From positions 496,001-560,000 of the forward strand of contig NZ_CP134867.1 in NCBI RefSeq assembly GCF_031954525.1: a stretch of DNA of 64,000 nucleotides, given 5' to 3'. Position numbers and translations under genes: made by a program. Position 1 is the stretch's first letter; each line of letters opens with the position of its first letter. The stretch comes from Dyella sp. BiH032 (lineage in GTDB: Bacteria; Pseudomonadota; Gammaproteobacteria; Xanthomonadales; Rhodanobacteraceae). This document shows, piece after piece, positions 32,913 to 42,615 of the stretch. The notes beneath the pieces were generated by a model, which worked only from the letters and a program-made list of their open reading frames with translations, had not been told where the DNA came from and did not search any database.

Positions 32913-33683
32913 TCACCGATCGTCCCCGCTTAGCAACGAGCCCACGATGCCGCCCACCAAGCCGCTGCCGAGCGCCGCACGGTTGGAGCCGCCTTCGCCG
33001 CTGGGCATGTATTCGGCCAACTGGTGCGCGAGCCGCGAGATGGGCAGCGTCTGCAGCCACACGGTGCCGGGGCCGGTGAGCGAAGCGAGGAAAATGCCGT
33101 CGCCGCCGAAGAGCGCGTTCTTGATGCCGGGCACGGTGACGATCTGGAAGTTCACCGAGCCCTGGAACGCGCCGACGTGCCCCGGATGAACGCGCAGGTT
33201 CTCGCCCGGCGCCAGATCTTTGCGGATCAATTCGCCGGAAAGCTCCAGCCACGCGGTGCCTGTGCCGCCGAGCTTCTGCAACATGAAGCCGCTGCCGCCG
33301 AAGATGCCCGCACCCAGCGATTGCTGAAAGCCCACGCTGATCGACACCTGCGGCGTGGCGCAGAGAAAGCCGTGCCGATGCACCATGTACTCGTTACCCG
33401 GGCTGAGCGACACCGGCACGATATGGCCCGGCACCTTGGTGGCGAACGCCACTTCGCCCGTAGTGCGCGCGGCCTTGTATTCGGTCATGAACAAGGTGCC
33501 GCCGCCGATCACGCGCTTGAGCGCACCGAACAGACCGCCACCACCGCCCATCTGGGTGTGCGTGCTCATCTGGATGGACGAGGTCATCCAGGAAAGCTCG
33601 CCACTTTCCGCGAAGATGCTTTCGTTGGGGTCGAGCTGGACTTCCAGTACGGGCATCACGGTGCCCTGGATGCGGGTTTGCAT
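32913..33683 (-). CDS. AIM24-family protein (TIGR00266)
   Basis: A 256-residue beta-rich protein of the AIM24/TIGR00266 family, related to yeast mitochondrial AIM24. Typical features are the internal strand repeats (G-E-L-S-W-M, F-M-T-E-Y, F-L-C-A-T-P, V-S-I-S-V-G-F-Q-Q-S-L, G-S-G-F-M-L-Q-K) and a Gly-rich loop after residue 45. There is no signal peptide. The biological role is unknown; bacterial relatives are often near stress or envelope genes. The start at 33683 is the family start (M-Q-T-R-I-Q-G). It is divergent from the R-body-like gene at 33966, with a 282-base region between. Confidence 0.85.
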   Translation of the reverse strand: MQTRIQGTVMPVLEVQLDPNESIFAESGELSWMTSSIQMSTHTQMGGGGGLFGALKRVIGGGTLFMTEYKAARTTGEVAFATKVPGHIVPVSLSPGNEYMVHRHGFLCATPQVSISVGFQQSLGAGIFGGSGFMLQKLGGTGTAWLELSGELIRKDLAPGENLRVHPGHVGAFQGSVNFQIVTVPGIKNALFGGDGIFLASLTGPGTVWLQTLPISRLAHQLAEYMPSGEGGSNRAALGSGLVGGIVGSLLSGDDR

Positions 33684-33801
33684 GAAGGTGTCCCTTGGGT
33701 CTCGGGTAGATCGCGGACGGAGGCCGCGCGGCGAGCGCATGGTCCGCGCAATTCGCGCCCGGGGAGAAGTGCCTTTTGGCGACGCAAGAACCTGCGTTCA
33801 G

Positions 33802-33847
33802 CGCCCGCGCCATGCCACACCAAACGTGGCACTGTGTGGCGCGGGCG
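33802..33847. repeat. Long imperfect hairpin in the divergent AIM24/rebB gap
   Basis: CGCCCGCGCC (33802-33811) pairs perfectly with GGCGCGGGCG (33838-33847). Inside it, ACAC pairs with GTGT. It could be an operator, a processed 5' RNA structure or a terminator of upstream readthrough. It is seen directly; its role is inferred. Confidence 0.35.
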
Positions 33848-33965
33848 GATTTCGACGATGCTATGCCCGCAGCAAGCAGGGGAATTCGGTACCAACACAC
33901 CTACCCGGCTGGACGCGCGTCGCGATGGCGCGCGGCCGGGCGACCTCATTCGGAAGGGAGCTCTC

Positions 33966-34541
33966 ATGTCCGCCACTACCCCATCCATCAATACGCCGGT
34001 CAACCCGCAGGTCACCGACGCCGTGACGCAAAGCAATGGCGTGCCCACCTACGGCCAGGCGCCGGCCATGGCGCTGGCCTACCTCTATCAGGTCACGGCC
34101 TGTGTACTTGCCAACGCCGCGCAGAACGCCGTCTCCGCACAGCAACAGAGCGCCATCACGGCGCAGGCGGCGACGACCGAGGCCGTGGTCCAGTTGTATG
34201 CGATCGACACGGCGAACAAGAGCCCGGCACTCGATGCGGCGCCGTCTTCCCGTGACATGGCAACGGCCGCGGCTTTGCCGGAGACGCTGGCGCATGGCGC
34301 TGGCGTGGCCGCGCCGCATCACGTGGTCGGCTTCGACCATGCCGGCCCCTGGGCCCATGCCGCGCACGAGTTGATGGGCGCCGTGGCCAGCGCGCTGCGC
34401 GAGTTCGAGCAAGTGGCGCAGGAAACCAACATGGCCACCATCAAGCAGGCGGCGACCACCGCGGTGTTGGCGAACATGATCAAGGCGCCGGAGCGGTTGG
34501 AGCAGTATCAGAAGATCTTGGCGTTGATCGAAGAGCTTTGA
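33966..34541 (+). CDS. RebB-family R-body protein
   Basis: A 191-residue protein. Residues about 12-83 match the RebB domain of R-body proteins: V-N-P-Q-V-T-D-A-V-T-Q-S-N, A-P-A-M-A-L-A-Y-L-Y-Q-V-T-A, A-A-Q-N-A-V-S-A-Q-Q-Q, and I-T-A-Q-A-A-T-T-E-A-V-V-Q-L-Y-A-I-D-T. R-bodies are coiled protein ribbons that unroll. The C-terminal 100 residues are an unusual extension with two amphipathic helices, longer than the ~100-residue Caedibacter RebB. Only one reb-like gene lies here; R-body loci usually have several. The start at 33966 follows GGAAGGGAG. Confidence 0.85.
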   Translation: MSATTPSINTPVNPQVTDAVTQSNGVPTYGQAPAMALAYLYQVTACVLANAAQNAVSAQQQSAITAQAATTEAVVQLYAIDTANKSPALDAAPSSRDMATAAALPETLAHGAGVAAPHHVVGFDHAGPWAHAAHELMGAVASALREFEQVAQETNMATIKQAATTAVLANMIKAPERLEQYQKILALIEEL

Positions 34542-35623: not shown

Positions 35624-36285
35624 GCAAGTTCCTTTGCGTGGATCGTGGATAACGAAGAGTATGTGCAGCGCGCACGGATCGGCGTTCGCGCAAGGCGTTT
35701 GACGGCCGAAGTTTCCTATCGATGCTGCCAAATCGCGCGGCGCTTTCGCAACCACACCAAGTTCGCGCACGTCGTAGGCGCGAGACTACAGACAACAAAA
35801 AATGATTTTGATAGTGTCGATGGCGTTGCCCGCGGAGTGGTGATGCGCGTCGCGGACAACCATGGCAGCAATGCTATGAGAGCGCGGGCCAAGGGTGCTG
35901 GACACACCCCTGACCCGCTGACCATAACCAACTAAACGGGAGTTGATCATGGCTAAGCCAGATCATACGGTACTTGCACGCCCGCCGATCCCCTCGGCGA
36001 CATCCTCATCGCCAAATCGGGCCGTCTGCATACCTCGCAGACACGGTTGAAGAACCGCGGCCCAGGTGGTTTTCGTTGGAAGAATCCTAGCCGTGTAACC
36101 CGGCGCGTCGCCCTGCGCGACGGCGGAACTCACTGACGCCGCATTCCACTTCTCAATCAAGCCGCCCGGGGTCCAGCCATGGACCACCGGTGAAACCTCG
36201 AGTCCGTGTGATCGCGGCACGCTGAGTGGTTGGCGGCGTGCCGTTTTCGGAGCGGGGAGCGGCGCTTTATGACAAGGAGTTACTT
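35624..36285. other. Gene-poor region with a doubtful small reading frame
   Basis: No firm gene. A 33-residue frame at 35949-36050 (MAKPDHTVLARPP...) has a ribosome site (CGGGAG). The adjacent frame continues with a basic, coding-looking stretch (G-D-I-L-I-A-K-S-G-R-L-H) to a stop near 36137. This suggests a short gene split by a frameshift, but no family is recognised. An AT-rich patch near 35800 could be a promoter. Confidence 0.25.
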
Positions 36286-36588
36286 ATGGATGTTTTTGGC
36301 GAACCCTGGACCACACGTCATGCCCGCTATTTCGTTGATCCCAAAGCGGGGGCGGAGGCGCTGCTCAACGATGCCTCGGAATGGCTGCAGTACGCGCAGG
36401 CCAACCTCAATGTGCTGATCGAGCTGGTTAACGAGCGCGGTGCGCCAGACGTGCGGCGGTTGACAGTGGTGTTGGAAGGGATTGGCGCGTTTATCGAGAT
36501 GGGGATGCGTAGCGCCGGGCAGGCGCATATGCGGGTGCAGTTGGAGAAGGTGCGGAAGGGGATGAGAAGTCCTGTAGCCGTGCCGTAG
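36286..36588 (+). CDS. Small hypothetical protein (possibly DUF6124-like)
   Basis: A 100-residue protein beginning MDVFGEPWTTRHARYFVDP. It is mostly helical (A-E-A-L-L-N-D-A-S-E-W-L-Q-Y-A-Q-A-N-L, then a second helix with L-E-G-I-G-A-F-I-E-M-G). The E-A-L-L-N-D-A-S-E-x-L pattern recalls DUF6124 proteins of Pseudomonas, a family of unknown function; this is from memory and uncertain. The start at 36286 has a strong AAGGAG. It lies directly beside the AT-rich defence island and may be its left neighbour. Confidence 0.6.
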   Translation: MDVFGEPWTTRHARYFVDPKAGAEALLNDASEWLQYAQANLNVLIELVNERGAPDVRRLTVVLEGIGAFIEMGMRSAGQAHMRVQLEKVRKGMRSPVAVP

Positions 36589-36618
36589 AGATACGGTGAT
36601 CGCAGTGATAACGCAGTC

Positions 36619-36640
36619 GGCGGCCTTACTTCTGGCCGCC
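36619..36640. terminator. Hairpin at the left edge of the island
   Basis: GGCGGCC (36619-36625) pairs with GGCCGCC (36634-36640). It lies between the convergent stops at 36588 and 36700 and may terminate both. Confidence 0.5.
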
Positions 36641-36699
36641 GCCACTCACGCATGCTTAGCCATGCGAAATGGCGCTGGGTTCCAAAAAGAGCGACGATA

Positions 36700-39600
36700 T
36701 CAAGCGACCCCGGCTGGTGGAGATTTCCATACATCTGATTGCGACTCGTGGTCCTTGCGGAGCTTGAAGAGGGCAACAGGGTCTATTTCCAGGAATGCTA
36801 CCGAGGCTTGAGGCTGGCCATGCATATGAAATATCTGTCGTTTAAATGATTCTTTATACGGTGCATAGGCGTTACTTCCTCCATATAGTCCATTGTTGGC
36901 AATTATTATCATCTGAAACATGTGGTAGTGAAGAGCTAAAGACATTTGGTCAAAAGTCCCCACATCTCTATTTAGAGCTGGTATTGCATAGACATCTGAA
37001 ACATTGCGCAAGTCGGAGGCCAAGGATAGGTCAGTCGCGTCATAGCAAATTGAACCAGTTAACCAAAGCGGTCCGCTTGATACTTCTCCAAATTCGTAAC
37101 CGATCAGCCATTGACAGGGTCTAAACCCCTGAAGGAGCGGGGTCCCTACATTAAGTTGGCGCTCCTGTGGAGATAGATTTTTCTTTCCCTGTAATCGGAT
37201 GCGCATCTGTAGTCCATGCGACTTCGATGTCACCGGAATAATCCATAGCGCCGAGTTCACAAGTGGCTTTCCCTTCAGCAGCTCCTGATAGGTAAGGCCG
37301 GCAAGAATAATGGTTTTGTGAGCACGGGCAAAAGGAATAAGGTGAGTAGACACATCATTTGGATGAACCGCTAACTCAGGAAGTATCAGCCAGTCCAGGC
37401 GTCCTTCCTTACCCAAGTGGGTTTCTCGAAGGTCAAGCATGCGTTCTACTGCTGCGAGTGCGGCCGAGATGTGTCGTCTATGTTTCTTCCGAGTCACCTC
37501 ATGATCACATTTGAGGTCATTTAGAGAGAAGTCTTGATCGGACGGAAAGATCGTTTGAACCACGCAAGCTCGTAACGGCCTAACTGCGCCGTCTCTTGCT
37601 AAGGCTGGGGCCGACATCGGTAGGATCAAAAGGTCATCGTCAACTCCACGAATACTCCTGAGCTCCAGCTGCCTGACACCGAGGGCCAGCCTAGTTGCCT
37701 CGAGACCACGCTCAACGAAACTAAATTCTGAGGGTACTCGGCACCCTGGCCACCGCAAGAGAGCCATCAAGAGCTTCTCGATCCACTCCGATATTGGCAA
37801 CCAACCATCACCGAAGCTTTCATGTCCGCTAAATAATCCGTGGATACGCTGATAAGCGTGACCAGGTGCGGGTATGTATGTGCCGGCTAAGCTTCGCCAA
37901 CTCCGCGAACGTACCGCCTGGGTGAAATCACAACGTGCGGTAAGTACGTAGCGGAGGAGAAAGCCTAGTTGAAAACGCCACCTTTCGCCTATGGGGCACC
38001 ATTTGGGCGGGGAGTACAAAGATTCGGCCGAAGTAACAGATCGCGCTAGGTGAACCTGTTTGATTCTCCAAGGTTGTCTTACGTCATCAACACCTAAGTA
38101 GACGTTGATCGGGATAATTACTTCATTATCATGGCGCTCGATTGCATTAAGCAAACTGCTGGCAAAGCTGAGAACTGAAAATTCGTTGCGCAATGGACCG
38201 TCATTAGGACCGACCCCCACAACGTCCACCAGATTTTTCATTTCGGGCCTAATGGGGCGCATCGATAGACATAGATCATCAAGCTGTCGTTGCCCCAGAA
38301 GAGATTGAACTGAAGGCTGCTGTCTATAAACCTCCAGCGCCAGAGTCATATCCCTCTCAACCACTTCGGCCATTAGCCTTGGTGTCGCGTGCTTGGCGAT
38401 CCTATCTATTGCCTGGAGGTCGTCTCCAAATGATCGGTACGAGAGCACCGCAAGAATCGCAAATTCTCTTGAAGAGGTGGGTAGGAATCTCCCCTCCTTG
38501 AACAGCAGCAATTCGCGATAATATTTGGTTTCTGAGTGGCCGCCCCTTCGTATCGTTAGGAGGCCAGGCTTTCTTCTTGTCGCCAGATACAGCAATAGCT
38601 GTTGTTTTAGGTACCACGGCAAAATAACAGCCTTCTGCTCCATGAGGCGCACTGCTTCACGCTCAAGGGCCAATCTATATTGCTCAATATCAATTCCCTC
38701 GGGCATGCTTTCGTCAGATTGGACGTAGCCGGTCTCCGTTGCGCCTGCACGGAATATCTCCGAAAGGCAATACCATGCTACACGCCGTGGAGCTCCTCGA
38801 GGGCCGCCTTTTGTTGTAAATGGCTTGAGCAAAAAAAGTACGTTTGTGAGAACGTCCTTCGACGGCCAAAGATCGAGCCCAATCCTTAGGAGGCGAACAT
38901 TTGCTGGATCATCCAGCCACGCCTCTATTAGGCCGAGCGCGAACGCCTTTGCTTCCTCATCAAGCTCCCGCTTGGTCCTCTGTTCACGTAAGCCAGTTTC
39001 CTCGTCGCGGTATTGAAGACCAGCCGTCGGGTCATCAGGCTGCTCTAGGAGCATTGGGCGAAGTGATCTATATGTTGCGCGATACCGGCCGGCCGCGAAT
39101 CTGGCGACCGTCGCATCTCTGACATCAGGAACCGGCGCTAAGGACCAATTGCGACTAGATGTTTGTGTTTCTGAGTAGCGCTGTTGCGATCGAATCAAAC
39201 CTTGGACCGCATCTAATATTTCAACGCCACCTACGGTGTCGAAGCCGCCAGAGATTGCGCCTTGAATTCGGGCCATCTTCCTGCTTTGACGAACGAGCGG
39301 CTTCTGCTCCCCGCTAAGTGCAAAGGCGTGAGTCTTTTCATTGGAAACGACTAGCCCCGTCGCACTCCGGTCGAGAAGTCCCTGAAGCCAGATAGTGACT
39401 TCTTCTTCAATTTTTTCCAGAGGGATTCCAGATTCAACTGTCAGGATGATTCGAAGATCGTCAACATATCGTACGACGTCGACAACGACACCACCGGGAA
39501 AGACCTCGGTTGAACCAATGCTCCGTCGCAGGAGATCATCAAAGTCGAGGAGAACTAGATTGGCGAAGAATCCAGCGGATACTAGGCCCTGCGGTAGCGC

Positions 39601-40413
39601 GATGTGGCTAAATCCGTGAATTCCAGTCTTGCGCTCATAGTCGCCAACTTCTACTCGATCTCGTTCGCTCCAACTCCAAGAAAGTGCGCGCTCTGCGAGT
39701 TCCCGAAACCCCTGGTTCGCATCAGGGCCTAGCAGTTCGTCTAGCTTTGCGTTTAGTAGGGAGGGTCGAACTCGATCATAAAATCTACTCAGATCCGAAT
39801 GGACAACTACATGCCGATTTGATCCATCCTGCGCACTGGATTCTGCGACAACGTCCGCTCTTGTAAGGAAGGTTCGGTAATCCTGAAAGTACGCCCTATA
39901 TAGCTTTGAGGATCCCCATCTGTGTGTGAGAGCTAAACCTTGGCTATCGCAGAAGAGGCGGTTTCCATAGGAGATGACAGCTTGGCGGTCCGCATATGAG
40001 GTGTAGCTGCCGCGCGGGTCGCCTTGTCTAGTCTCCACTCGGTCCGCGACGCACATCATCACAGCGGTTGCCACGACCTGACTTCGGAGACTAACGTGAG
40101 CCAATGGACGAAGTTTTGATGTGACATCTTCCTCCACTGGTCGCCATTGCTGCCCATCCGGGCTTACTCGCCACCGTTGGCTTTTAGGTGCGGGGACAAT
40201 GCGCAACTCATCATTGGACCACTCAGTAGGATTTTGAAGACTTTCCCGCAATCCGGCCAAGAACCTAGGTAAGTCGACCGCTGTACGATCTAGCTCCAGA
40301 GTGTCTGCGTACCAATTGTGATTGCGGATGTACGCGGAGGTCTTTTTCCATGCCTGAATAAGGACGAAGTCCTGTGTCAGCAAATCCAGGCTAGGGAACA
40401 ATACTTCGATCAT
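36700..40413 (-). CDS. Defence-associated reverse transcriptase fused to nitrilase (DRT1/UG1)
   Basis: A 1237-residue protein with an RT domain in the first 420 residues. Its motifs are catalytic Asp207 in H-S-D-L-S-R-F-Y-D (motif A), L-P-Q-G at 273-276 (motif B) and Y-V-D-D at 316-319 (motif C). A long helical middle follows. The last ~270 residues are a carbon-nitrogen hydrolase with Glu1013 (L-P-E-L-A-V), Lys1077/1078 (Q-G-K-K-N-L) and Cys1123 (S-I-C-Y-D-A). This is the architecture of DRT type 1 (UG1), an anti-phage RT. The start at 40413 is fixed by GAGGAGG; an ATG at 40470 has no site. Base composition is far lower in GC than the flanks, so it is probably horizontally acquired. It follows the HNH and MazG-like genes. 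Confidence 0.92.
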   Translation of the reverse strand: MIEVLFPSLDLLTQDFVLIQAWKKTSAYIRNHNWYADTLELDRTAVDLPRFLAGLRESLQNPTEWSNDELRIVPAPKSQRWRVSPDGQQWRPVEEDVTSKLRPLAHVSLRSQVVATAVMMCVADRVETRQGDPRGSYTSYADRQAVISYGNRLFCDSQGLALTHRWGSSKLYRAYFQDYRTFLTRADVVAESSAQDGSNRHVVVHSDLSRFYDRVRPSLLNAKLDELLGPDANQGFRELAERALSWSWSERDRVEVGDYERKTGIHGFSHIALPQGLVSAGFFANLVLLDFDDLLRRSIGSTEVFPGGVVVDVVRYVDDLRIILTVESGIPLEKIEEEVTIWLQGLLDRSATGLVVSNEKTHAFALSGEQKPLVRQSRKMARIQGAISGGFDTVGGVEILDAVQGLIRSQQRYSETQTSSRNWSLAPVPDVRDATVARFAAGRYRATYRSLRPMLLEQPDDPTAGLQYRDEETGLREQRTKRELDEEAKAFALGLIEAWLDDPANVRLLRIGLDLWPSKDVLTNVLFLLKPFTTKGGPRGAPRRVAWYCLSEIFRAGATETGYVQSDESMPEGIDIEQYRLALEREAVRLMEQKAVILPWYLKQQLLLYLATRRKPGLLTIRRGGHSETKYYRELLLFKEGRFLPTSSREFAILAVLSYRSFGDDLQAIDRIAKHATPRLMAEVVERDMTLALEVYRQQPSVQSLLGQRQLDDLCLSMRPIRPEMKNLVDVVGVGPNDGPLRNEFSVLSFASSLLNAIERHDNEVIIPINVYLGVDDVRQPWRIKQVHLARSVTSAESLYSPPKWCPIGERWRFQLGFLLRYVLTARCDFTQAVRSRSWRSLAGTYIPAPGHAYQRIHGLFSGHESFGDGWLPISEWIEKLLMALLRWPGCRVPSEFSFVERGLEATRLALGVRQLELRSIRGVDDDLLILPMSAPALARDGAVRPLRACVVQTIFPSDQDFSLNDLKCDHEVTRKKHRRHISAALAAVERMLDLRETHLGKEGRLDWLILPELAVHPNDVSTHLIPFARAHKTIILAGLTYQELLKGKPLVNSALWIIPVTSKSHGLQMRIRLQGKKNLSPQERQLNVGTPLLQGFRPCQWLIGYEFGEVSSGPLWLTGSICYDATDLSLASDLRNVSDVYAIPALNRDVGTFDQMSLALHYHMFQMIIIANNGLYGGSNAYAPYKESFKRQIFHMHGQPQASVAFLEIDPVALFKLRKDHESQSDVWKSPPAGVA

Positions 40414-40486
40414 TTTTTCCCCTCCTCGTAGTAACGCCGGTGCAAGTTCGCTCTGGGGCCGAAACTGCAAGCTACGTAACTAGCCC

Positions 40487-40592
40487 ACTTCTTGCCGTGC
40501 CTCGAACTTCCTCTAGAGCCTGGATCATCCTAATCGAGCGTGAGCAGGGCGATGCGAATTGAGGGCAGAGGCCATTAAAGAAGGCAAGAAGT
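40487..40592 (-). repeat. Inverted repeat in the reverse-transcriptase leader; possible structured RNA
   Basis: ACTTCTTGCC (40487-40496) and GGCAAGAAGT (40583-40592) are perfect 10-bp arms enclosing 86 bases. A second nested pair, GCCTC (40499-40503) with GAGGC (40568-40572), would stack inside. The region lies between the HNH stop and the RT start, upstream of the RT in its transcript. Other DRT systems depend on an RNA near the RT gene, so this is a candidate for one. Confidence 0.45.
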
Positions 40593-40603
40593 AAAAATTT
40601 TTA
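40592..40603. repeat. 12-bp AT palindrome after the HNH gene
   Basis: TAAAAATTTTTA is a perfect palindrome 18 bases below the HNH stop at 40621 and abuts the right arm of the 10-bp inverted repeat. It may be a promoter element for the RT gene or a protein-binding site. Confidence 0.3.
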
Positions 40604-40620
40604 TGCCTCCAACCTTTGCA

Positions 40621-41622
40621 TTACGCACGAATAGAAGGAGACATGTACTTCAGAGTGAGTGCCTCCAGACTAGGTTCTTGGCTCTTCTTCAAAGGTGATC
40701 GAATCTTTCGCGACTCGTATTTCGCATAGATGGACCTCAAAAGCCGCTTATGCAGTTCAATCGTCCCTTCCGGAGAAATCTTGAGCTGCCCAAGGTCAAA
40801 CAACGTGTGGATATCAGCGCGAAGAAGTAGCCCGTTCTGGACCACATTGGAGTCCTTGCCAAAATACGGAGCGATGTGGGCCGCTTCTAGAACGGCTTCG
40901 ATATCGCATCCCGTAACCGCGCACTTTCCCTCGTACGCAGCCATCAAGGCTTCGCGAAATTTAAGCTGGCCCTGCCGCCGCACGACTTCCCGAAGCACCT
41001 TCGTCCTGCCATCGGCCATGCTTGCAGGGTTGAACGAGTCTGCTTCGGAAGCCTCGGCTCGCACTTGTTCTAGCTCGAGTTCCAAGGGTAGATCGGGAAG
41101 TGAGCGTTGGAACATCTGCTCGACGAAGTGATCCAGCGAACCGAACTTCTCGAGAATGGTTTGTACTTTCTCGTCCGAGATTTTGGTGAACCCTTGATAC
41201 TTGCGGTGGAGATAGCTGGCCACAGGTTCAGCCTGGACGCCCACATCGAGCGCCTGCGGCTGGGTGAGCAAGTACATGTACTCCCATGTACGGCCTTTGT
41301 CGTCCGTGCCCCAGATTTCGCGTGCCATGCCCTCGTCATGCAAGGTGCCGGAGACGATTGAAACGAACCTGTACCTGTTGCCGTAGACGGTCAGCACGAT
41401 GTCGCCGACGCGTATGGCTTCCCACCTAGGCTTGTTCCTTGGCCCTGGTACGGCACCCCATGCATAGAAGCCGTCGGCATTGGTCAGCGCCTTGAATTGA
41501 GCCGTGCGCTCTGGACCGAGAACTTTCTCCATGCGTGAGAAGGAAACCGCCTGAGTGATTGAGTCTTTCAGGTGATCCCGGGCTTCGGGTGTGCCTGCGG
41601 TGAAGATGAAGATACGTCTCAT
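40621..41622 (-). CDS. HNH endonuclease with PUA/EVE-like N-terminal half
   Basis: A 333-residue protein. The C-terminal HNH_2-type nuclease has C-A-V-T-G-C (Cys234, Cys239), E-A-A-H-I-A-P-Y (His249), Asn263 and H-T-L-F-D-L-G (His272). The first 120 residues include G-D-I-V-L-T-V-Y-G-N and W-E-Y-M-Y-L-L-T, resembling the EVE/PUA-like domains that read modified bases in type IV restriction enzymes. The match is at pattern level only. It is likely to cut foreign, perhaps modified, DNA. Its start lies 3 bases after the stop of the MazG-like gene, so the two are co-translated. The DRT1 gene follows 207 bases later on the same strand. Confidence 0.85.
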   Translation of the reverse strand: MRRIFIFTAGTPEARDHLKDSITQAVSFSRMEKVLGPERTAQFKALTNADGFYAWGAVPGPRNKPRWEAIRVGDIVLTVYGNRYRFVSIVSGTLHDEGMAREIWGTDDKGRTWEYMYLLTQPQALDVGVQAEPVASYLHRKYQGFTKISDEKVQTILEKFGSLDHFVEQMFQRSLPDLPLELELEQVRAEASEADSFNPASMADGRTKVLREVVRRQGQLKFREALMAAYEGKCAVTGCDIEAVLEAAHIAPYFGKDSNVVQNGLLLRADIHTLFDLGQLKISPEGTIELHKRLLRSIYAKYESRKIRSPLKKSQEPSLEALTLKYMSPSIRA

Positions 41623-41625
41623 AGC

Positions 41626-41991
41626 TCAGTAGTCCGAATACTTATCGGACTTCCCGCGGACGAGCTCCGCCGGGTACTTCGCATCGTTGAGCTTCAACTT
41701 CTCATCGGTGGCCGCGAGGATGTCGATGCCGGTGACTGAGCAGAAGCGCATGAGGTAGATGAATACGTCAGCGGCTTCCTGGGTGACGGCGTCTTTCTTT
41801 TCCTGGGGGATGGATGCGAAGTCTTCGCTGCCATCGCGCCACTGAAAGATCTCCATCAACTCCGATGCCTCGATGGCGAGCGCCATGCTGAGGTTCTTGG
41901 GTGTATGGAATTTGCCCCAGTCTCGATCTGCGCTGAACTGGTCGATCCGCTGCCGAAGCTCCGCGAAGGAAGGCATGGCGTTTGTAGGCAT
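41626..41991 (-). CDS. MazG-like nucleotide pyrophosphohydrolase (dCTPase/RS21-C6 type)
   Basis: A 121-residue all-alpha NTP pyrophosphatase that cleaves (d)NTPs to (d)NMP and diphosphate. The metal-binding signature is intact: E41-A-S-E44-L-M-E47 in the first helix pair and E72-A-A-D75 in the second. The W-G-K-F-H-T-P-K-N-L start to the first helix is typical of dCTP pyrophosphatases. Depleting dNTPs is a known way of blocking phage replication, so it may act together with the RT or HNH proteins. It is first in the likely operon. An in-frame ATG at 42048 would add 19 residues; the start at 41991 is preferred because the family begins here. Confidence 0.85.
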   Translation of the reverse strand: MPTNAMPSFAELRQRIDQFSADRDWGKFHTPKNLSMALAIEASELMEIFQWRDGSEDFASIPQEKKDAVTQEAADVFIYLMRFCSVTGIDILAATDEKLKLNDAKYPAELVRGKSDKYSDY

Positions 41992-42086
41992 AGACGTTCC
42001 CCAAGGACTTGGGGCGCACGCGGACTCAATGCGAAGCAGCCACTCCATAGTGCAGCTTCTGGTACGAACCAGCCCCCGGGAAAGAT

Positions 42087-42117
42087 CTTATACGAAATCT
42101 CCTGGTTGCTAGGACAA
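42087..42117 (-). promoter_or_regulatory. Candidate promoter for the defence cassette
   Basis: On the minus strand TTGTCC (42117-42112) and TATAAG (42092-42087) are spaced by 19 bases, about 95 bases upstream of the MazG-like start. The hexamers are near the sigma-70 consensus but the spacer is slightly long. Confidence 0.35.
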
Positions 42118-42225
42118 GGGCGACCGGCGCCGACGAGAGCTGCAAGAGGAGCTACAGGGGATAGAAGATCTGGAGTTGCTTACTGCAGCTGCTTACTTCG
42201 GCCGTGTTTTATCCGGACGCCAGAC

Positions 42226-42270
42226 ATTCGGCTCATTCCATGAGCCGAATAGACCCAACTATTCGGCTTA
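42226..42270. repeat. Overlapping mutually exclusive hairpins
   Basis: ATTCGGCTCA (42226-42235) pairs perfectly with TGAGCCGAAT (42241-42250). AGCCGAATAG (42243-42252) also pairs perfectly with CTATTCGGCT (42259-42268), and these two stems share the central segment. Only one can form at a time, as in attenuators or switch RNAs. It may also be a small repeat marking an insertion boundary. Confidence 0.5.
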
Positions 42271-42615
42271 CATCCACCCCAGTCTTCGGTAGCAGACGCA
42301 GCCCGGTCGCCTCCATCTCCCTGTGATTCCGCCAGCTGGGACTCGCATTCGGAGGTACTGAGGCGAACACTCGGCCGCTTTGCCTACTGGCAGCTGGCGG
42401 ATAGGAGACAGGTCCATTAGCTCCTTGTGTGCTGCCAAAGCGCCGTATATGCACCGCATTGTTCGCCTTTCATATCAGGATGCCTTGGGCGTGATGCGCC
42501 TTACAGCAGGCCGCCACCCTCGTGCCGCACCCATGCCGTCCCCCTGTCGTCACGCAAGCAGCGCCTACGGCAGCATGATGCCAACACCCCAGACACCACC
42601 TGCCAAGGACCACCC

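Follow-up and report, generated by a model that had tools for sequence, protein, structure and literature searches.

The window analysed here is a stretch of 64,000 nucleotides from Dyella sp. BiH032 (contig NZ_CP134867.1, positions 496,001 to 560,000 of the forward strand), and our subject within it is drt1, a minus-strand gene whose product joins a reverse transcriptase (RT) to a nitrilase. Upstream on the same strand lie genes for an EVE-HNH endonuclease and a MazG-like nucleotide pyrophosphohydrolase. A preliminary description of the window had proposed that drt1 is an antiphage gene of the DRT type 1 (UG1) family. The structure and mechanism of one DRT1 were published in June 2026 (PMC13275509, PDB 9YFD), and we refer to that protein as the studied DRT1. 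The gene and the signal ahead of it are as follows.

36700..40413, minus strand: drt1 gene, RT-nitrilase of 1237 amino acids, ATG start, stop codon at 36700-36702
40419..40426, minus strand: ribosome-binding site AGGAGGGG ahead of the drt1 ATG, read from the sequence

The drt1 frame has no internal stop codon. A longer form of the open reading frame (ORF) runs from a TTG start (36700-40470) and would add 19 residues to the protein. However, AGGAGG, a strong ribosome-binding site, lies a few bases upstream of the ATG at 40413; we therefore take this ATG as the start, and the preliminary description had the coordinates right. The database entry for this protein (P0001; 1237 amino acids) likewise begins at the ATG. 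Judged from its sequence, the drt1 product appears to be an intact but divergent DRT1 protein.

Assignment to the DRT1 family

The PADLOC model Drt1a matches the window protein with 1233 bits over essentially its full length (residues 23-1255 of 1256, counted on the TTG form). The other PADLOC scores are lower: 427 bits for a second Drt1a model (PDLC02171), 214 bits for RTasNitrilase and 119 bits for UG5-nitrilase. A single PDB sequence matched at an E value of 0.01, and that is 9YFD, entitled ‘Defense-associated reverse transcriptase 1’ (E 1.3e-118); the alignment falls in two stretches, 5-351 and 480-1223. A profile built from 42 relatives matched 9YFD with E 4.1e-175.

The protein has 1187 homologues, and we used the best 120 of these and the best 120 of 751 matches; the 42 relatives in the profile come from the first 120. 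DRT1 loci were represented by the best 76 of 227 confirmed stretches (40 of the 76 entered the fold alignment). A single-sequence search of genome contigs returned no relative, but an alignment-based search did find relatives. A tree of 55 proteins, built by a quick method, places the window protein together with P0002 (60% identical to it), P0003, P0006 and P0014 with 100% support in the Shimodaira-Hasegawa-like approximate likelihood ratio test (SH-aLRT), apart from the studied clade. The root and the deep forks of the tree were left unused because the UG5-like outgroup is a piece of 584 amino acids on a very long branch. Drt1a is the top model for P0002, P0014, P0121, P0125 and P0175, and the window protein thus stands in the tree among proteins that score as Drt1a.

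Conservation of residues essential in the studied DRT1

Residues were mapped in a MAFFT alignment of 316 rows (240 listed proteins and 76 proteins from the DRT1 loci, the window's own included). Counts were taken among rows with a residue at the column in question, and they are not independent, because one protein may enter twice, once as a listed protein and once from its locus. The numbering of 9YFD was reached through P0121 (Serratia, 1229 amino acids), which has D at 324 and 325, S at 402, C at 1116, K at 1219 and A at 1223, as in PMC13275509; residue 401 of P0121 is A, while PMC13275509 names T there. The mapped features of the RT and the linker behind it are as follows.

39775..39795, minus strand: RT motif DLSRFYD, residues 207-213; D207 in 308/308 sequences with a residue there
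39586..39597, minus strand: RT motif LPQG, residues 273-276; P, Q and G each 308/308
39457..39468, minus strand: RT motif YVDD, residues 316-319; each residue 308/308; equivalent to Y322-D325 of the studied DRT1
39250..39252, minus strand: S388, predicted DNA-priming serine, aligned to S402; S in 311/312

The three RT motifs named in the preliminary description were thus all located in the sequence, in the order given there. The catalytic aspartates D318 and D319 fall in the columns of D324 and D325, and both are kept in all 308 sequences; D207 of DLSRFYD we also take to be catalytic, on the general pattern of RTs. Within columns 376-402 the most conserved residue is S388, with a runner-up at 305/311. 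AlphaFold2, applied to residues 1-600 (mean predicted local distance difference test, pLDDT, 86.7), gave a model with S388 in a loop and predicted helices at 376-387 and 393-413 on either side of it. The linker as a whole is not distinctively conserved in the clade of the window protein: the fraction of majority residues is 0.78 among its 120 listed proteins and 0.73 among 40 of the studied clade. A Foldseek search with the RT model returned other RTs and polymerases among the best 50 matches listed, and 9YFD was absent from those 50 (structure library up to April 2026). No RNA partner reached the gathering score in an Rfam search of the 34-44 kb part of the window.

The remaining features of the protein lie downstream of the linker.

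37594..38976, minus strand: helical middle, about residues 480-940; aligns to 9YFD from residue 480 onward
36769..37581, minus strand: nitrilase domain, about residues 945-1215; 9YFD nitrilase E 6.2e-54, PADLOC RTasNitrilase 214 bits
37375..37377, minus strand: E1013, assigned nitrilase catalytic glutamate; 315/315
37183..37185, minus strand: K1077, assigned nitrilase catalytic lysine; 313/314
37162..37164, minus strand: E1084, assigned second catalytic glutamate; 313/314
37045..37047, minus strand: C1123, nitrilase nucleophile, aligned to C1116; 314/314
36709..36726, minus strand: C-terminal lid K1230-S-P-P-A1234-G, aligned to K1219-T-Q-P-A1223-G; K 307/310, A 305/309

Helices are predicted in the middle region up to residue 600, where the model ends. 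We take E1013, K1077, E1084 and C1123 to be the Glu-Lys-Glu-Cys set of the nitrilase, an assignment made from conservation together with the known features of the family. The preliminary description had named E1013, K1077 and C1123, as we do, but had offered K1078 beside K1077 and had omitted E1084; column 1078 is variable, unlike that of K1077. Of the nitrilase residues, PMC13275509 names C1116 by number. Nine mapped residues (D318, D319, S388, E1013, K1077, E1084, C1123, K1230 and A1234) occur together in 296 of the 316 rows; of the other 20, 14 have a gap and 6 have a difference.

Several results weigh against reading this protein as a DRT1 that works like the studied one. It is only 29.8% identical to the 9YFD-like P0121. 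Pfam, searched at E 0.1, gave the RT below threshold (27.7 bits against a cut-off of 29.6) and no nitrilase (CN hydrolase) match, so that the nitrilase call of the preliminary description is borne out by the PADLOC model and by 9YFD but not by Pfam; among NCBIfam models, Drt1 did not appear at E 0.1 and none passed its cut-off. HMMER left the linker with the priming serine unaligned in both the single-sequence and the profile comparisons to 9YFD, so that the equivalence of S388 and S402 rests on the 316-row MAFFT alignment only; the stretch 382-478 of 9YFD is itself not resolved in the structure (PMC13275509). Finally, in 9YFD the swapped C-termini are joined through I1212 and Y1215; the window protein has D1221 and Q1225 in these columns, which vary, and its filament contacts may differ as a result. 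The domain-swap contact R1210 of 9YFD is retained as R1219.

Nevertheless, because the Drt1a match spans the whole length, 9YFD is matched, the tree groups the protein with Drt1a-scoring proteins, and the equivalents of D324, D325, S402, C1116, K1219 and A1223 are conserved, we are confident that the window protein is a stand-alone DRT1 (UG1) abortive-infection protein, intact, on a branch distant from the studied one. The family named in the preliminary description was therefore the correct one.

A proposed mode of action

In the studied DRT1, the D324N/D325N, C1116A and S402A changes each abolish defence, and K1219A and A1223F weaken it as much as deletions of the C-terminus do (PMC13275509). 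According to the same source, S402 primes untemplated A-rich DNA, which is made without added RNA template and in the presence of RNase A, the adducts drive tetramers into dormant filaments, and the effector is the nitrilase, which a swapped C-terminal lid closes; T4 phages that escape carry changes in dda. The nitrilase domain is also described as key in a commentary on the paper that reported the discovery in 2020 (PMC7699616).

By homology, the RT of the window DRT1 would take S388 as primer and add short untemplated DNA to itself. These adducts would drive formation of tetramers, which would ready the nitrilase, and would stack the tetramers into filaments, where the nitrilase would be held shut by the swapped C-terminal lid. 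A phage trigger would then free the nitrilase, which may halt the cell by acting on a substrate. Every step of this scheme is carried over from the studied DRT1; what we observed in the window protein itself is its architecture, with the mapped functional residues conserved. Residues essential in one DRT1, including the single priming serine, hold across members that are only about 30% identical, and this supports one common mechanism. The window protein is a further member of a known defence family and not a new system; nothing tested here departs from the published mechanism in a way shown to matter.

The branch might instead keep the chemistry and differ in its trigger or its dormancy, given its identity of about 30% to the studied one, its other swap contacts and its position beside the MazG-like and EVE-HNH genes; it could, for example, depend on the nucleotide pool or on the neighbours cutting phage DNA that carries modified cytosine. 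We think this very unlikely. As a distant member, the window DRT1 offers a protein in which to address two points that the published work leaves open, namely what the nitrilase acts on and which phage signal triggers it.

No partner gene is needed for the studied DRT1 to protect E. coli, and an optional partner, drt1b, accompanies about 18% of drt1 genes (PMC13275509). Among 48 ORFs of the 32.7-46.4 kb neighbourhood (48 of 72 ORFs scanned), PADLOC at E 0.001 gave only two HNH models, from a library that perhaps lacks a Drt1b model.

The neighbouring MazG-like and EVE-HNH genes

Two genes lie directly upstream of drt1, outside the DRT1 gene itself.

40621..41622, minus strand: EVE-HNH endonuclease, likely a modified-cytosine-dependent restriction enzyme (PF13391; Foldseek)
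41626..42048, minus strand: MazG-like nucleotide pyrophosphohydrolase, paired with the HNH gene (PF12643)

The model of the HNH protein (mean pLDDT 87.6, predicted template modelling score 0.61) matched VcaM4I in Foldseek with E 9e-10 and a template modelling (TM) score of only 0.3, which suggests that the domains are set differently in the two proteins. VcaM4I, itself an EVE-HNH enzyme, recognises 5-methylcytosine and 5-hydroxymethylcytosine (PMC7897488). The model also matched the N-terminal domain of McrB, once with DNA containing 5-methylcytosine (E 5e-7 and 7e-7; TM 0.66-0.69 by target length). The HNH proteins were compared in an alignment of 37 of 120 listed homologues and the window's own. 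The two genes likely form a modified-cytosine-dependent restriction module. As a guess, the pyrophosphohydrolase could remove modified deoxycytidine triphosphate, and so protect the host from, or work with, a nuclease that cuts modified-cytosine DNA. A limited literature search turned up no publication on a MazG-like and EVE-HNH pair.

An HNH match on the same strand and within 200 bp of the MazG gene was found in 11 of the 23 MazG-bearing genomes of the family (G000, G077, G084, G085, G086, G116, G127, G130, G145, G152 and G192). The match covers nearly the whole protein in G152 and G192, and the HNH part only in most others of the 11. The HNH protein of Dyella sp. C9 is 51% identical to that of the window, as is the match in G152.

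It is very unlikely that DRT1, EVE-HNH and MazG make up a single system of three genes, with DRT1 fed or triggered by the nuclease or by the pyrophosphohydrolase. The genes do lie on one strand in the order MazG-HNH-DRT1, with 3 bp between MazG and HNH; all three are lower in GC than the rest of the window, and none of them is found in the other five genomes of the genus. However, 207 bp separate HNH from DRT1, DRT1 occurs in only one (the window's own) of the 11 genomes with adjacent MazG and HNH genes, and by tblastn and profile neither gene is present in any of the 76 other DRT1 loci, some of which are short and which perhaps do not include those of P0002-P0014. The protection of E. coli by DRT1 without a partner (PMC13275509) also argues against it. 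Since the pair recurs without DRT1 and none of the 76 loci holds either gene, DRT1 is separate from MazG-HNH, and the locus is a small defence island in which MazG-HNH is one module and the stand-alone DRT1 another.

Large defence genes are recurrent neighbours of DRT1 in the 76 DRT1 loci. In four of these a protein matching the candidate PDC-S68, a helicase-like protein of roughly 1250 amino acids, begins at most 30 bp after the DRT1 match on the same strand (near 13762 in L002, 13767 in L008, 13758 in L010 and 7989 in L053). L040 has a short PDC-S68 piece 160 bp after DRT1, and L035 and L066 have more distant copies within the locus; the identification is from PADLOC for L008 and L010 and from tblastn for the others. 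Directly upstream of DRT1, L010 has genes for an HKD-Snf2 helicase and for a type IIG enzyme, and L002 holds relatives of both; L002 and L010 each contain a tight run of HKD-Snf2 helicase, type IIG enzyme, DRT1 and PDC-S68. Loci with PDC-S68 may possibly represent a larger system with DRT1 inside. The scanned ORFs of the window gave no match to the PADLOC models for PDC-S68, HKD-Snf2 or type IIG, and a limited literature search turned up no publication holding PDC-S68. Thirteen of the 76 loci (L045, L047, L056 and ten more) have tblastn matches to a putative type I methylase HsdM, judged by eye.

Distribution and base composition

The GC content of drt1 is 0.514 (0.498 at third positions), compared to 0.677 for the rest of the window (36001-42500 excluded), which bears out the low GC reported in the preliminary description; the HNH and MazG genes are intermediate, at 0.551 and 0.579. 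Within the genus, drt1 was found in one of the six genomes searched, with no match in the other five. In the family, 2 of 197 genomes match, the window's own and a weak one in a frame of 1016 codons; in the order, 7 of 299 match, namely the window's own, G365 (two pieces, 38% and 35% identical, each in a frame of 1282 codons) and five weak ones. Only 7 of 72,556 plasmid records match, each below 60% identity and 4 covering at least 80%; none of 50,697 phages has a DRT1 match, and IMG/VR gave one DRT1 locus. Two relatives of the genus were examined for an empty insertion site; in each the flanking genes share one contig but in the other order, and no clean site was found. The low GC and the patchy presence (one of six genus genomes) make drt1 look foreign and suit a mobile defence gene; they suggest acquisition, which the preliminary description had also proposed and had called recent.

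The same low GC in a high-GC setting could mean that the DRT1 gene has decayed or fallen silent and is a relic, and promoter-like sites are no more numerous than in shuffled sequence (3 compared to 4.2 expected), a weak test. The open frame of 1237 codons, the retention of all nine functional residues and the strong ribosome-binding site make a relic highly improbable.

Two other features lie near drt1. A repeated element of about 0.8 kb (window 35767-36559) ends 141 bp from the drt1 stop; its own genome has 6 long copies (74-100%) among 10 matches, and the genus relatives G053 and G068 have more than 20 long matches, with the element adjoining a RebB-like gene once in each. The 120-amino-acid ORF of the element had no Pfam match at E 0.1. 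A RebB ‘killing trait’ domain is found by Pfam in a frame of 505 amino acids at window 33024-34541.

Comparison with known systems

The UG5 RTs also have a C-terminal nitrilase (PMC8934634), but it is scarcely credible that the window protein is a UG5-type RT-nitrilase or belongs to another RT class, since its UG5-nitrilase score of 119 bits is ten times below its full-length Drt1a score, and Drt1a of K. pneumoniae likewise scores as Drt1a far above UG5. The UG1 protein that we take it to be is closest, among named relatives in the best 120 of 1187, to RT proteins of Dokdonella soli, Rhodanobacter and Stenotrophomonas rhizophila (P0003, P0006 and P0014; 56-59% identical over 98%), which share one supported branch with it and of which P0014 scores as Drt1a. 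Both PADLOC Drt1a models match both the window protein and the Klebsiella pneumoniae ‘antiviral reverse transcriptase Drt1a’ (P0125), although the two are 29.3% identical and PDLC02171 gives 427 bits for the window protein compared to 2790 for P0125. With the studied DRT1 (PMC13275509, 9YFD) it shares the order of RT, helical repeat, nitrilase and C-terminal lid, as well as the two aspartates of the RT, the priming serine, the residues of the nitrilase and the lysine and alanine of the lid; it differs in its identity of about 30%, in a linker that HMMER does not align and in the absence of I1212 and Y1215.

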